64,000 nucleotides of DNA from Pseudomonadota bacterium (GTDB lineage Bacteria > Pseudomonadota > Gammaproteobacteria > Steroidobacterales > Steroidobacteraceae): assembly GCA_025357635.1 (NCBI GenBank), contig JANXOV010000009.1, forward strand, positions 1-64,000, in the 5' to 3' direction. The notes under the pieces were generated by a model. That model was not told the origin of the DNA and did no database searches. It saw only the letters and a program-made list of their open reading frames with translations. This document shows, in pieces, positions 38,436 through 43,830 of the stretch (position 1 is the first letter of the stretch; every line of letters begins with the position of its first letter). A program made the position numbers and the translations under genes.

Positions 38436-38489
38436 ATGCGCCAATTGATTCTTGAACCCGTGTTCTGTTCGGCAGGGCACTCATTGTGA
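38436..38489 (+). CDS. 17-codon ORF overlapping the fhs start
   Basis: [20 protein letters not shown] 38436 with a strong ribosome site (AAAGGACG) 6 bp before it. Its TGA overlaps the GTG start of fhs (GTGA). The frame extends in frame to an ATG at 38373 (38 residues). fhs itself has a weaker ribosome site, so translation of this ORF could feed fhs by re-initiation. Whether the peptide matters is unknown; its composition shows no obvious attenuator run. Confidence 0.45.
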
Positions 38490-40153
38490 GCAATATCGAT
38501 ATCGCGCAGCGCGCAACGATGCGGCCGATTCTGCAATTGGCGCAGGAACGACTGGGCATACCTGAAGAATCGCTGGAATCCTACGGCCGGTACAAGGCCA
38601 AAGTGTCCTTGGATTTCATCAAAAGCTTGAATGACCGGCCCGACGGCAAACTGGTTCTGGTGACGGCCGTTTCCCCCACCCCGGCGGGCGAGGGAAAGAC
38701 CACCACCACGGTGGGTCTGGGCGATGCCCTGAATCACATCGGCAAGAAAGCCATCATCTGCCTGCGAGAACCGGCACTGGGGCCCGTATTCGGGATGAAG
38801 GGCGGAGCGGCAGGGGGTGGATATTCGCAGGTCGTGCCGATGGAGGATATCAACCTTCATTTCACCGGAGATTTCTCCGCCATTTCGCTTGCGCACAATC
38901 TGTTGTCGGCCCTCATCGACAACCACATTCATTTCGGCAATGAGCTGAAATTCGACACGCGCCGCATCGCCTGGCGGCGCGTAGTGGATTTGAACGACCG
39001 CGCACTGCGCAGCATCGTCGTCGGGCTGGGAACCTCGAACGGATACGCGCGTGAGGACGGGTTCGACATCGTCGTAGCCTCCGAAATCATGGCTATTTTC
39101 TGTCTGGCCACGAGCTTGCACGATTTGCGCGAGCGGCTCGGGAATATCGTCATCGGCACCTCGCTAGGCGGCGAGCCGATCCTGGCCCGGCAACTCAAGG
39201 CGCACGGCGCGATGACAGTGCTCTTGAAACAGGCGCTGGCGCCCAATCTGGTGCAAACGCTGGAGAACAATCCCGCATTCATTCACGGCGGGCCCTTCGC
39301 GAACATTGCGCATGGCTGCAATTCCGTGATCGCCACGCGTACGGCTCTGAAGCTTGCGGACTATGTGGTCACCGAAGCCGGATTCGGCGCCGACCTGGGC
39401 GCAGAGAAATTCGTCGACATCAAATGCCGAAAATCCGGGTTGAAGCCATCGGCTGCTGTGATCGTCGCAACGATCCGTGCTTTGAAGTTTCATGGGGGCG
39501 TGAATGTTGCGGATGTAGGCAAGGAAAACCTTGGCGCGCTCAGGCAAGGCGTGGTCAATCTGGAACGGCACATCGACAACGTGCGCAACCATTACGGAAT
39601 ACCGTGTGTTGTGTCGATCAACCACCGTGCAGAAGACACCGATGCCGAGGTGAAGCTGCTGATCGACTCCGTCGCTCATCAAGGCGTCAAGGTGATTCTT
39701 GCGCGCCATTTTGCCGAAGGCAGCAAGGGCGCGATCGAGGTTGCACACGAGGTCGTGAATCTGTGTTCACAACCCAGCGGGTTCAAGTTTGTCTACGAAG
39801 ACGGCGCCACGTTGTGGGAGAAGATGCAGGCCATCGCCCAGAAGATATATCACGCCGCCGATATTTCAGCCGACAAGAACGTGCGGCAACAGATCCAGCG
39901 GCTGCAGGACGCCGGCTACGGCCACTATCCGGTGTGCGTAGCCAAGACCCAGTATTCGTTTTCGACCGACCCGACCCTGCGCGGCGCACCGTCGGGTCAC
40001 ACCGTCAATGTGCGTGAAGTACGGCTCGCGGCCGGAGCGCAATTCATTGTCATGATCTGCGGGGAAATCATGACCATGCCCGGTCTGCCGAGGATTCCAG
40101 CCTCGGTGTCGATCGATGTGGACGAGGATGGAAAGATCTGCGGATTGTTTTGA
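38486..40153 (+). CDS. fhs: Formate--tetrahydrofolate ligase
   Basis: 555 aa, full length. KYKA-type N-terminal segment [14 protein letters not shown]-loop [87 protein letters not shown], and C-terminal [15 protein letters not shown]. It makes 10-formyl-THF from formate, ATP and THF. In gammaproteobacteria it is scattered. GTG start; alternatives upstream are closed by the short ORF arrangement. Neighbours give no C1 pathway context. Confidence 0.96.
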
Positions 40154-40205
40154 AAGGTTGACGGCAATGCCAGGTGCAAACCGGTGGGAGCTTGGCAAGA
40201 TGATG

Positions 40206-40229
40206 CCCGCTCACAAGAGCGGGTTGTCT
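40206..40229 (+). terminator. Hairpin after fhs, probable terminator
   Basis: CCCGCTC-acaa-GAGCGGG, 7-bp perfect stem with 4-base loop, followed by TTGTCT. It lies about 52 bp after the fhs stop. The U-tract is short, so efficiency is uncertain. Confidence 0.55.
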
Positions 40230-40308
40230 ACCTCAGGATTCCGGGTACGCCATTAGGGTAAGCCGAGCGTATTGCACGCACCGGTTTCGGCTGCGCGTCA
40301 ACCATTAG

Positions 40309-40407
40309 TTATTTCAGGTTACGAAATTCCATGATGGTCAGAAGTACGCCGATCAGCATCAACGCAAAAACGGCAATACCGACGTAGAGCGGATCGCCGA
40401 ACATCAT
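40309..40407 (-). CDS. 32-residue single-helix membrane peptide
   Basis: MMFGDPLYVGIAVFALMLIG followed by a short tail ending EFRNLK. One transmembrane helix (about 8-26), Lys/Arg at the C-terminus. The ATG overlaps the stop of the preceding gene (ATGA), a classic coupling signal that supports its being real despite its size. Third tiny membrane gene in the run behind the PAS protein. Function unknown; such peptides often stabilise or tune membrane complexes. Confidence 0.5.
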   Translation of the reverse strand: MMFGDPLYVGIAVFALMLIGVLLTIMEFRNLK

Positions 40408-40586
40408 GGCTTTTTACCCAGCAATGCTGTCAGCTTGAAATAAATCCCGAAGCACAGGATGGAGGGCACCCAAATCGCTGTGAAGATTGCCTGCTCTCGA
40501 TCCTTCAAGCCAAACCACATGTAGGCTGACAGAATGAACGATATCATCACCGCCAGCAGAAAGAAAAAATCCGATTTTCTGAACAT
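40404..40586 (-). CDS. Small membrane protein, two helices
   Basis: 60 aa. Two predicted helices, FFFLLAVMISFILSAYMWFG (about 6-25) and a second with IFTAIWVPSILCFGIYFKL (about 34-52). GGAGGG precedes the ATG by 6 bp, a strong ribosome site. The IWVPSIL stretch looks like a family motif, but I cannot name the family. Between the 70-aa and 32-aa genes, 18 bp after the first and overlapping the second. Confidence 0.62.
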   Translation of the reverse strand: MFRKSDFFFLLAVMISFILSAYMWFGLKDREQAIFTAIWVPSILCFGIYFKLTALLGKKP

Positions 40587-40604
40587 ATCAGCCCTCCAAG
40601 AATT

Positions 40605-40817
40605 TTACTCGTCCAGATAGTCAACGATTCCATAGCCAACGGCGCTTAACAGGCAACCCGTAATCGCCACCGAACCGATTATTCTTATCCCCGAGGAGAT
40701 TCCTATCGCAAAAAAATCTGGGTTGATCATCCCGCTCAGGGCGAGTACCAGGCCAGCGCATCCGACCGCGGTCAGCGAGTTTCCGATCGAAATCAACAGC
40801 CCGTAAAGATATTTCAT
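40605..40817 (-). CDS. Small membrane protein, two helices, glycine-rich
   Basis: 70 aa from ATG 40817. Helices at about 4-30 (LISIGNSLTAVGCAGLVLAL) and 42-63 (IIGSVAITGCLLSAVGYGIV), with Gly/Ala/Ser small-residue spacing suggestive of helix packing. A TTG at 40904 would add 29 residues overlapping the PAS gene; I reject it because those codons are not hydrophobic and the overlap is long. It follows the PAS gene by 44 bp on the same strand. Function unknown. Confidence 0.55.
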   Translation of the reverse strand: MKYLYGLLISIGNSLTAVGCAGLVLALSGMINPDFFAIGISSGIRIIGSVAITGCLLSAVGYGIVDYLDE

Positions 40818-40861
40818 TGTGCCGTACGAGTATCTTGCATATTCAACCGTGAGCGATGCGG

Positions 40862-41263
40862 CTACTGAATCGCAAAGCCTGCGCGTTGAATCGCCAACCA
40901 ACACCTGGCCAGCTTGCCGACCTTAACTGGCGTTACGCGCCAGTGCATGACGAAGGGGGTTCCATCCTTCTTATAATTGATCGCTTGACCTTCGAATTTG
41001 CCGCCGTTCTTGATGGCTTCACCCAGGCGCGCAATCACTTTTTGATCCGTAGCGGGTCCTTGCAAAATTTTCGGCGTTTTGCCGATTACTTCCGACGGCG
41101 CGTAACCAGTAAGCTTCTTGAAAGCCTGGTTCGCGTAAATAATTTTGGCCCCGGCACTCGCATCCGTGATGAGGATCGAGTCATAACTGGTTTCTGTCAG
41201 CACCTGCAGGAGTTTTAGGCTGACAGGCGTATCACTCAGGACTTTTTCTAAAGAACCAGACAT
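40862..41263 (-). CDS. Short PAS/LOV-like protein lacking the photoactive cysteine
   Basis: 133 aa, PAS domain only. LLQVLTETSYDSILITDASA, IIYANQAFKKLTGYAPSEVI, GKTPKILQGPATDQ, INYKKDGTPFVMHWRVTPV and CWLAIQRAG follow the LOV pattern, but the NCRFLQG-type motif reads TPKILQG, so the cysteine that forms the flavin adduct is replaced by proline. It may still bind flavin or another ligand. Length and context resemble the short PpSB-LOV photoreceptors of Pseudomonas putida, encoded beside PplR regulators. AGGAG lies before the ATG. Divergent from the MerR-type gene. Confidence 0.75.
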   Translation of the reverse strand: MSGSLEKVLSDTPVSLKLLQVLTETSYDSILITDASAGAKIIYANQAFKKLTGYAPSEVIGKTPKILQGPATDQKVIARLGEAIKNGGKFEGQAINYKKDGTPFVMHWRVTPVKVGKLARCWLAIQRAGFAIQ

Positions 41264-41310
41264 TGAAGATTTCTCCTGTGATAGTGGGTATGTCTCTCCA
41301 TTGCTGCAAT

Positions 41311-41324
41311 ATACATAGTTGTAT
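41311..41324. promoter_or_regulatory. Inverted repeat between PAS and MerR-type genes
   Basis: ATACA-tagt-TGTAT, preceded by T so that the left half reads TATACA. It lies 48 bp upstream of the PAS gene and just before the candidate merR promoter. The half-site resembles the T(G/A)TACA element reported for PplR1, but the spacing and orientation differ, so this is only suggestive. Confidence 0.38.
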
Positions 41325-41329
41325 TCATA

Positions 41330-41360
41330 TTGAACAGGGTTTTCTGGAAAAATTTATTCT
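41330..41360 (+). promoter_or_regulatory. Candidate MerR-type promoter with 19-bp spacer
   Basis: TTGAAC (41330-41335), 19 bp, TATTCT (41355-41360). Overlong 19-bp spacers are typical of promoters that MerR-family proteins activate by DNA distortion. It would drive the MerR-type gene, with about 65 bp of leader. Confidence 0.4.
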
Positions 41361-41428
41361 AAAGACCTGTTAATGAACGCAATAAACGTGATAATAGCGT
41401 TTCAAAGACAGTTCATTAAGAGAGGCCG

Positions 41429-42418
41429 ATGCCAAAAGATCCACGGGTTCTGGTGGCGAAGCAGGTGTACCGAAGTGGTGCGGTAGCACGACTCACCGGC
41501 ATCCCCGTTCAAACGCTGCGCGTTTGGGAAAGGCGATACAACATTGTCGGACCACGCCAGAGTGCGACGGGGCAGCGCCAGTACTCCCCCGACGAAGTCA
41601 CCCGCCTCACGGTGATCAAGCAGCTGGTTGACTCGGGGCACGCGATAGGCTCTGTCGCCGCACTTGATCTGGTGCGGTTGCAGTCCATGCTCCACACGGC
41701 AGCACGCGCCGCCCGCGCTCCGCGCGGCGAGGCCCATTCCACTGCCGAGGGCGCAAGACTCCCGGTACGCGTGGCCATCGCCGGCGATGCACTGGCCATG
41801 CGGGTGCAGCACTATCAACTGCCTATGGTGCAAGTCGTAGCGTCAAGTCCTGATGCCGAGCGCGCTGGCGAAGCCCTGCGAGGAGTTGCCGCCGATGTCC
41901 TGCTGATCGAGTTGCCGACTCTGCAGCGCGAATCGGCGCGGACAATTCAGTCCCTGGCGCAACAAGTCGGGGCGCAGAAGATCATCGTCGAGTACGGCTA
42001 CGCTTCGCAACGCATCGAGCGGGAACTGAGGGCACTGGGCTGCAGTCTGGCCCGCGCGCCGCTGAGTGTCGACCAGCTGGAATTGCTATGCCAATTCCCG
42101 CCTGCCGCCGCGCAGGCCAGCGGTCTCAGCCCTTTACGGCATCTGGATCCGGTCGCGCCGCGCCGCTTCGATAACAAGGCGCTCGCGGAAGTTTCCCTGG
42201 CGTCAGTCGCCCTGAACTGCGAGTGTCCGCACCACCTCTCCGAGCTGCTGGTGCGAATGGGAAATTTCGAAACCTACAGCGCCGAGTGTAAAAGCCGCAG
42301 TCCGGCCGATGCCGCACTCCATCATTATCTGATGCAGGTAGCGGGCACTGCACGGGCCTTGTTGGAGGATGCACTCGTGCGTGTCGTCGAGGCGGAAGGC
42401 ATTTCGCTTCCCGTCTGA
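41429..42418 (+). CDS. MerR-family regulator, class II LitR/PplR-like
   Basis: 329 aa. N-terminal MerR HTH (about 12-85): YRSGAVARLTGIPVQTLRVW and ERRY, then RQYSPDEVTRLTVIKQLVDSGHAIG. The C-terminal two thirds resemble the cobalamin-binding half of LitR/CarH (Rossmann-like VRVAIAGDALAMRV... and VAADVLLIELPTLQ), but the DxHxxG cobalamin motif and W...EH motif are not seen, as in class II LitR proteins that respond through a partner LOV protein. A conserved-looking CECPHHLSELLVRMGNFE segment and a cysteine pair follow. AGAGAGG precedes the ATG. Probably regulates its own and the divergent operon. Confidence 0.75.
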   Translation: MPKDPRVLVAKQVYRSGAVARLTGIPVQTLRVWERRYNIVGPRQSATGQRQYSPDEVTRLTVIKQLVDSGHAIGSVAALDLVRLQSMLHTAARAARAPRGEAHSTAEGARLPVRVAIAGDALAMRVQHYQLPMVQVVASSPDAERAGEALRGVAADVLLIELPTLQRESARTIQSLAQQVGAQKIIVEYGYASQRIERELRALGCSLARAPLSVDQLELLCQFPPAAAQASGLSPLRHLDPVAPRRFDNKALAEVSLASVALNCECPHHLSELLVRMGNFETYSAECKSRSPADAALHHYLMQVAGTARALLEDALVRVVEAEGISLPV

Positions 42419-42452
42419 GACTGCAGCGCTTAATCGAGAAGGGAAATCAATC

Positions 42453-43175
42453 GTGGAATCACCAGCATCAGCCGAAGCGTTTCCTGCAGGCGGCCGCGCC
42501 GTCGTGTTCGGAGCCAGCGGCGGGATCGGCCGCGCTCTCGCGCTGCGGCTCGCTGCACAGCCGGGTTTCTCAGCCGTGCTGGGCTACTCGCGCAGCAGCG
42601 CTGTAGCCCTGGATCTATGTGACGAGTCAAGCATCGAGGCGGTCGCGGCAGACGTGCAGCGCAGCCCAGTGGACTTGCGGCTGCTGATCGACGCCACTGG
42701 CGTGCTTGATGGCGATGGTGTGGTCGCCGAGAAGACCTGGCGCCAGATGGACGGGGCTGCAATGATGCGCGCATTCGTAGTCAACGCAATCGGGCCGGCG
42801 CTGCTGATGAAGCATTTTCTCCCGTTGCTACCGCGTGCCGGCAGGTGCGTATTCGCCACCTTGTCCGCACGGGTTGGCAGCATCGGCGACAATCGGCTTG
42901 GCGGGTGGTACAGCTACCGCGCCTCAAAGGCCGCGCTGAACCAGATCGTGCGCACCGCTGCGATTGAACTGCGTCGCACCCGACCCGAGGCGCTGTGCAT
43001 CGCCTTGCATCCTGGCACGGTTGCCACGCCTCTGTCCGCTCGCTTCGCAAAGCCTGGGCTTGAAGTCCAATCACCTGAAGTGGCGGCGCTGCGTATCCTG
43101 GCGGTGCTCAACACGCTGACAGCGCAGTCCTCGGGAGAATTCTTTGATCAGCGGGGGCGGCCGATCGTCTGGTAG
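42453..43175 (+). CDS. Short-chain dehydrogenase, C-factor (CsgA)-like
   Basis: 240 aa from GTG 42453, with AAGGGA 8 bp before it. Nucleotide site AVVFGASGGIGRALALRL, DATGVLDGD in place of NNAG, catalytic Ser in FATLSARVGSIGDN and Tyr-x3-Lys in WYSYRASKAALNQ. ALHPGTVATPLSARF at the end is typical of the C-factor-like subgroup. Substrate unknown. It directly follows the MerR-type gene (34 bp), and related SDR genes occur in light-responsive LitR clusters of other bacteria. Confidence 0.82.
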   Translation: MESPASAEAFPAGGRAVVFGASGGIGRALALRLAAQPGFSAVLGYSRSSAVALDLCDESSIEAVAADVQRSPVDLRLLIDATGVLDGDGVVAEKTWRQMDGAAMMRAFVVNAIGPALLMKHFLPLLPRAGRCVFATLSARVGSIGDNRLGGWYSYRASKAALNQIVRTAAIELRRTRPEALCIALHPGTVATPLSARFAKPGLEVQSPEVAALRILAVLNTLTAQSSGEFFDQRGRPIVW

Positions 43176-43320: not shown

Positions 43321-43830
43321 TCATTTCGGCATGAGCACTGAATCGATCACGTGGATCGTGCCATTGCTCGCTGCGATATCGGTCTTGGTGACCGTCGCGC
43401 CGTCGACCTTGACCGTTCCTTTGTCAGCCGAGATCATGACGGACTGCCCGTTCACGGTCTTCGCGCTCTTCAGCGTCACCACCTTGGCGGCCTTGATGTT
43501 CCCGGAAACCACGTGGTAAGTGAGGATATCGCTCAGCTTTTGCTTGTTCTCCGGCTTCAACAGCGATTCGACTGTGCCGGGCGGGAGCTTCGCGAATGCC
43601 TCATCCGTCGGCGCGAATACCGTGAACGGCCCCTTTCCCTTCAGCGTCTCGACCAGCCCTGCCGCTTGCAATGCCGCAGCGAGCGTCTTGAACTGGCCGG
43701 CGGCAACCGCGGTGTCGACGATATCTGTCTTCGCCTCGTGGTGTGAGGCGCTCGCCAACAGTGGCAATGCCAGCAGGGCGGACATTGCCAGTCCGGTCGC
43801 TGCCGAAAGTATCGATTTCCTATTGCGCAT
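43321..43830 (-). CDS. Secreted fasciclin (FAS1) domain protein
   Basis: 169 aa from ATG 43830, with GGAG 8 bp before it. Signal peptide about 1-29 ([15 protein letters not shown] region). One FAS1 domain: H1 box [30 protein letters not shown], and H2 box [15 protein letters not shown]. Such proteins mediate adhesion or are stress induced. The frame extends far upstream in the opposite direction of the M28 gene, but the signal peptide fixes the start. Confidence 0.92.

Follow-up and report, generated by a model that had tools for sequence, protein, structure and literature searches.

A conserved operon encoding three predicted small membrane proteins beside LOV-like and LitR-type genes

Described LitR/LOV loci and the locus in the window

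Light-response loci of the LitR/LOV type contain DNA repair and fatty-acid genes, and many of their genes are hypothetical. The closest described systems come from Pseudomonas. The class II LitR of P. mendocina has a short LOV protein encoded next to it, and the two act together: upon illumination, PmSB-LOV binds to the class II LitR PmlR2 and frees the promoter, and the C53A mutant of PmSB-LOV gave no inhibition of PmlR2 (PMC9758184). The Pseudomonas LitR/LOV regions also hold genes for photolyase, SDR, FAD oxidoreductase, CryB and FolE (PMC9758184). Moreover, LOV proteins whose Cys has been taken away can still signal, using photoreduction of the flavin (PMC4682037).

The window, i.e., the whole 64,000-nucleotide stretch of DNA that was analysed, carries a locus of comparable composition, in which three small genes, here named A, B and C, accompany a LOV-like gene and a LitR-type gene:

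40309..40407, minus strand: gene C, 32 aa, ATG start (ORF reading and family alignment)
40404..40586, minus strand: gene B, 60 aa, ATG start (ORF reading and family alignment)
40587..40604, minus strand: A-B spacer of 18 nt with the ribosome site of B (read from the sequence)
40605..40817, minus strand: gene A, 70 aa, ATG start (ORF reading and family alignment)
40862..41263, minus strand: short LOV-like PAS protein, 133 aa (Pfam PAS_9, 5e-14), 44 bp upstream of A
41264..41428, no strand: divergent MerR/PAS promoter region with three GTTCAWT/AWTGAAC repeats (comparison with homologous LitR-divergent promoters)
41429..42418, plus strand: LitR/CarH-like MerR regulator (Pfam MerR_1 only, 6.6e-17)
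42444..43175, plus strand: SDR oxidoreductase (Pfam adh_short; 79% to the relative L035), homologous to the SDR in the cluster of relatives
43321..43830, minus strand: fasciclin (FAS1) domain protein (Pfam Fasciclin, 1.3e-41)

As in the PmlR2/PmSB-LOV and PplR/PpSB-LOV loci (PMC9758184), a LitR-type MerR protein without full B12 domains stands beside a short LOV-type protein, and SDR, FAD oxidoreductase, photolyase, CryB and FolE are common to the gene sets. However, the LOV-like protein of the window lacks the photoactive Cys, the published operator was not found in the window, and the locus adds FAS1 and A-B-C, small membrane proteins of a kind not named in the available part of that source.

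The MerR regulator shares 71% identity with the LitR-type counterpart in L035, and its NCBIfam CarH match is confined to the HTH. Profile searches of 41429..42418 gave no recognisable B12-binding domain, so the regulator would belong at most to the class without full B12 domains. In its promoter, the GTTCAWT/AWTGAAC repeats have counterparts in six of seven relatives, whose LitR-divergent promoters hold two or three copies, often spaced by 31 or about 62 bp; L035 is the relative without the repeat. The motif was spotted by eye in the same sequences that were then used for counting, so the shuffle counts for it are partly circular. A direct-order pair of repeats occurs at three places in the window's genome, the other two of which look by eye like GC-rich coding sequence. 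The published class II LitR operator, T(G/A)TACA-N12-TGTA(C/T)A, had no convincing match in the window; the best one carried 3 mismatches and was equalled by 96 of 300 shuffles. A sigma-70 promoter scan found none.

The PAS protein is a stand-alone LOV/PAS core similar to solved LOV domains: its best NCBIfam match is to the YtvA blue-light receptors, and its residues 30-114 align with a solved LOV domain at an E value of 1.3e-20. The photoactive site, GXNCRFLQ in LOV, reads GKTPKILQG in the window, with Pro in place of Cys. All aligned members of the family have TP or SP at this position, and His or Tyr takes the place of the FxN asparagine in the flavin pocket. Without the photoactive Cys, the protein is not a classical LOV receptor. 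It is like the Cys-less LOV receptors (PMC4682037, PMC5645311) in the LOV fold, in much of the flavin-type motif and in having no adduct-forming Cys; those receptors, as described in the available parts of the sources, are based on LOV variants whose Cys was removed, whereas the PAS family is a putative flavin binder and has His or Tyr for the FxN Asn.

Three small genes and their conservation

An earlier note on this DNA had read the three frames as translated genes lying behind the PAS gene on one strand, pointing to a strong ribosome site for B and to an ATGA overlap between B and C, and both signals are present. The A-B spacer contains TTGGAGGG, in which GGAGG lies 6 nt 5' of the ATG of B. 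The 3' end of B reads AAA-AAG-CCA-TGA, and C starts in the ATGA that overlaps this stop; as the start reads ATGATG, either Met is possible. B and C are probably translationally coupled. No clear ribosome site was seen in the sequence ahead of the ATG of A, so the exact start of A is uncertain. The same note had described the proteins as hydrophobic with two, two and one helices, and the models agree: AlphaFold gives A two helices, predicted to be transmembrane (2-28 and 43-69, pLDDT 90), and a two-helix hairpin for B (4-25 and 30-57, pLDDT 86), and C has a single hydrophobic stretch, a predicted transmembrane helix, followed by an EF(R/K) motif.

In the family alignments, A has the conserved motif GxSGxRxxAxxAVxGCLLAAIG, with R45, A51, G54, C55, A59 and G61 as conserved residues, R45 and C55 being invariant. 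B, the most conserved of the three, follows the pattern SD..FILLAV.ISF..S.YLWF....FTA.WVPSIL.FGIYFKL and has 18 invariant columns in an alignment of 40 sequences; W24, W39, P41 and Y49 are among its invariant residues. In C the residues F14, G20, E27 and F28 are conserved, with E27 and F28 invariant. A conserved His or metal-ligand set is absent from all three alignments; this makes it unlikely that the proteins are catalytic and more likely that they are structural or accessory.

Profile and sequence searches gave no match above the cut-off for A, B or C in Pfam, NCBIfam or PDB, nor did the three match PADLOC; B had no match in plasmids or phages, and a PDB fold search with its model gave nothing. 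The profile matches to SepZ, MerT, PetM, FocB and 7TMR-DISM were weak and were judged to be composition effects. The 7TMR-DISM_7TM profile was touched by 15 of 40 B members (best E 1e-4), which was put down to transmembrane composition, and PetM gave a single weak match (E 0.005, one member).

The distribution of B was followed through genomes at increasing distance. Near genomes gave 2 matches, the window's own included (59 genomes searched), and the window's order gave 26 reported matches (396 searched), of which the one in G176 is probably due to chance, lying inside a long frame, which leaves 25 B-positive genomes. There were 9 matches in the class (369 searched) and 2 in the phylum, the window's own included and both of the same class (249 searched). 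Among the carriers of B are two other genomes of the window's own family. Scanning genome contigs for B yielded 382 confirmed stretches, and the best 80 of these, nearly all labelled Beta- or Gammaproteobacteria, form together with the window a set of 81 loci.

In this set of the window and the best 80 of 382, the order A-B-C was kept in 78 of 81 loci; A lies upstream of B in 78, and C follows B in 80, while L049, the remaining locus, runs off its contig. Relative to the end of the B stop, C starts at -4 (ATGA) in 51 of 80 loci, at -1 in 16 and at +2 in 9. In another 32 loci, taken from the genome searches and with organisms partly shared with the first set, C follows B in 32/32, A precedes B and the full order is found in 29/32, and C starts at -4 in 23/32 and at -1 in 2. 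Among 20 close pairs, pN/pS was 0.29 for A, 0.07 for B and 0.23 for C, and the changes cluster at third positions, indicating purifying selection on each of the three frames. The conserved frames, order and overlap, together with the third-position changes, argue that A, B and C are genes, and their real translation is well supported on these grounds. A-B-C can be regarded as a genuine operon of three small genes, conserved and without a name, in which a shared transcript would be expected. Since the order is kept despite differing neighbours, a joint function is suggested.

Neighbouring genes

Clustering and profile searches showed which families recur next to A-B-C: short LOV-like PAS, LitR-type MerR, SDR (PRK09009 type), fasciclin, DUF3429, DCC1-like, lipocalin, FAD oxidoreductase, DPRP (cryptochrome/photolyase-like), photolyase, FolE and BLUF. 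In betaproteobacterial-type relatives, the FAS1 gene is the first of a FAS1-PAS-A-B-C unit. The neighbours regarded as light-linked are DPRP/photolyase, LitR, LOV-like PAS, BLUF, FolE, PucC, FAS1, FAD oxidoreductase and lipocalin. Within 6.2 kb, a strict light-linked gene (DPRP, photolyase, PAS, LitR, PucC or FolE) was found in 26 of the 81 loci (the window and the best 80 of 382) and one from a broader list in 36; the remaining 45, many of them on short contigs, had no light-linked gene within that distance.

DPRP occurs in 16 of the 25 B-positive genomes of the window's order, and in 8 of these 16, from five families (G260, G391, G037, G136, G126, G202, G086 and G167), it lies on the same contig as B at a distance of 0.4 to 7.5 kb. 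Under random placement, and with genomes treated as independent, the binomial chance of this closeness is about 5e-15. Co-occurrence per genome was weak (16/25 versus 12/32, Fisher p = 0.06). A linkage of A-B-C to light-response genes is well supported in several lineages by these comparisons, being strong in some and not seen in others.

Some neighbourhoods have features of their own. In Polynucleobacter-type loci (L043, L045 and L046), A-B-C stands after PucC and before glutathione peroxidase, an FrhB-type reductase and NnrU, a gene set that resembles photosynthesis-linked sets. In five Pseudomonadales loci (L066, L072, L077, L085 and L090), OvoA, of ovothiol biosynthesis, is located about 3 kb from the operon.

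Proposed working and competing explanations

Building on the observed genes, their order, overlap, selection and genomic linkage, we consider it reasonably probable that A-B-C is an operon of the light or photo-oxidative-stress response and encodes a small heteromeric complex of the inner membrane. It stands in one run with PAS, and the promoter faces the LitR-type MerR gene inside a light/photo-oxidative-stress gene set. In darkness, or as long as the cell is unstressed, the LitR-type protein would repress; a light or oxidative change would relieve this repression, through the flavin-type PAS partner where it is present and through other inputs elsewhere. A, B and C would then be produced in fixed proportion and, in the membrane, may keep photo-oxidative damage in check, probably as a scaffold or accessory unit because no conserved His or metal-ligand set is present. 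A, B and C most likely assemble into one such complex, and we infer the shared transcript, the LitR control and the protective role along with it. As a tentative extension, a Cys-less flavin-type short LOV and a LitR-type repressor might form a redox or non-adduct light switch for the protective complex across Beta- and Gammaproteobacteria.

Small one- and two-helix membrane proteins are often accessory subunits, and A-B-C might serve a larger constitutive membrane complex coded elsewhere, for instance in respiration or transport, with the light genes as bystanders in a stress island. The weak PetM match (E 0.005, one member) and the many loci without light genes would fit such an arrangement, and tiny one- or two-helix proteins from overlapping genes are a likeness shared with operons of small accessory membrane subunits. 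A-B-C differs from these in having no sequence match in Pfam, NCBIfam or PDB and no constant larger membrane partner in its neighbourhoods; its patchy presence (26 of 396 genomes in the order, 9 of 369 in the class) is unlike that of a core respiratory part, and the recurrent DPRP linkage also speaks against bystanders. This explanation is considered unlikely.

The earlier note had proposed that the three genes may be the output of the PAS gene, such as a small membrane complex, and had suggested co-occurrence as a check. In the window and in seven betaproteobacterial-type relatives, PAS immediately precedes A and shares its strand; L042 has PAS on the opposite strand, and in L080 and L095 it comes after C. 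In all, 11 of the 81 loci (the window and the best 80 of 382) have PAS beside the operon. However, PAS was not found within 6.2 kb in the other 70, and L029 and L031 keep LitR-FAS1-A-B-C without it; as most loci carry A-B-C without PAS, the three proteins cannot depend on it generally. Moreover, the known short LOV protein acts on the LitR-type regulator (PMC9758184), and by this analogy the PAS protein would act on the MerR protein, by other chemistry. The suggested complex is likely, being well supported by the conservation of the frames, their order and the overlap. The link to PAS is real but limited, the wider link being to light-response genes (LitR-type MerR, DPRP, photolyase, BLUF, FolE, fasciclin and PucC). 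By analogy, PAS more likely partners with the divergent LitR-type MerR, and A-B-C would be among the target units under regulation; a complex gated directly by PAS is quite improbable.

A toxin-antitoxin, phage or defence module could also consist of small hydrophobic proteins in a patchily distributed operon. The lack of a plasmid or phage match for B and of PADLOC matches for A, B and C, the strong purifying selection and the light-gene neighbours make this very improbable. Spurious ORFs, or hydrophobic frames that follow one another by chance, are hardly conceivable: the three are very short and matched nothing in Pfam, NCBIfam or PDB, but frame, order and overlap are conserved in more than 80 loci and changes are biased towards third positions.

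If A-B-C is tied to LitR/LOV loci, as the proposed light or photo-oxidative-stress operon would have it, it would add a new membrane effector to the response to light or singlet oxygen, found in non-phototrophs and in some phototrophs (Polynucleobacter-type, beside PucC). The proteins are absent from the family libraries searched (Pfam, NCBIfam, PADLOC and PDB), and one of them has 32 residues. The PAS-A-B-C locus would also offer a natural test of LOV signalling without the Cys.

PAS, A, B and C have a GC content of 46-51%, compared with 62% for the window; across 40200-41400 the GC content falls to 45-51%, with about 55-65% on either side. The nearest relatives are labelled betaproteobacterial. 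A foreign origin by recent horizontal transfer into the window's genome is possible, although the third-position GC, which is mildly low only, and the two same-family genomes with B count against it. A formate-tetrahydrofolate ligase gene (38486-40153, plus strand) converges on the operon, and no homologue of it was found in the other fetched loci. The window's genome also carries a second LitR-type gene (L127, G000:C158:2065-2967), 37% identical and about 3 kb from a photolyase-family gene.
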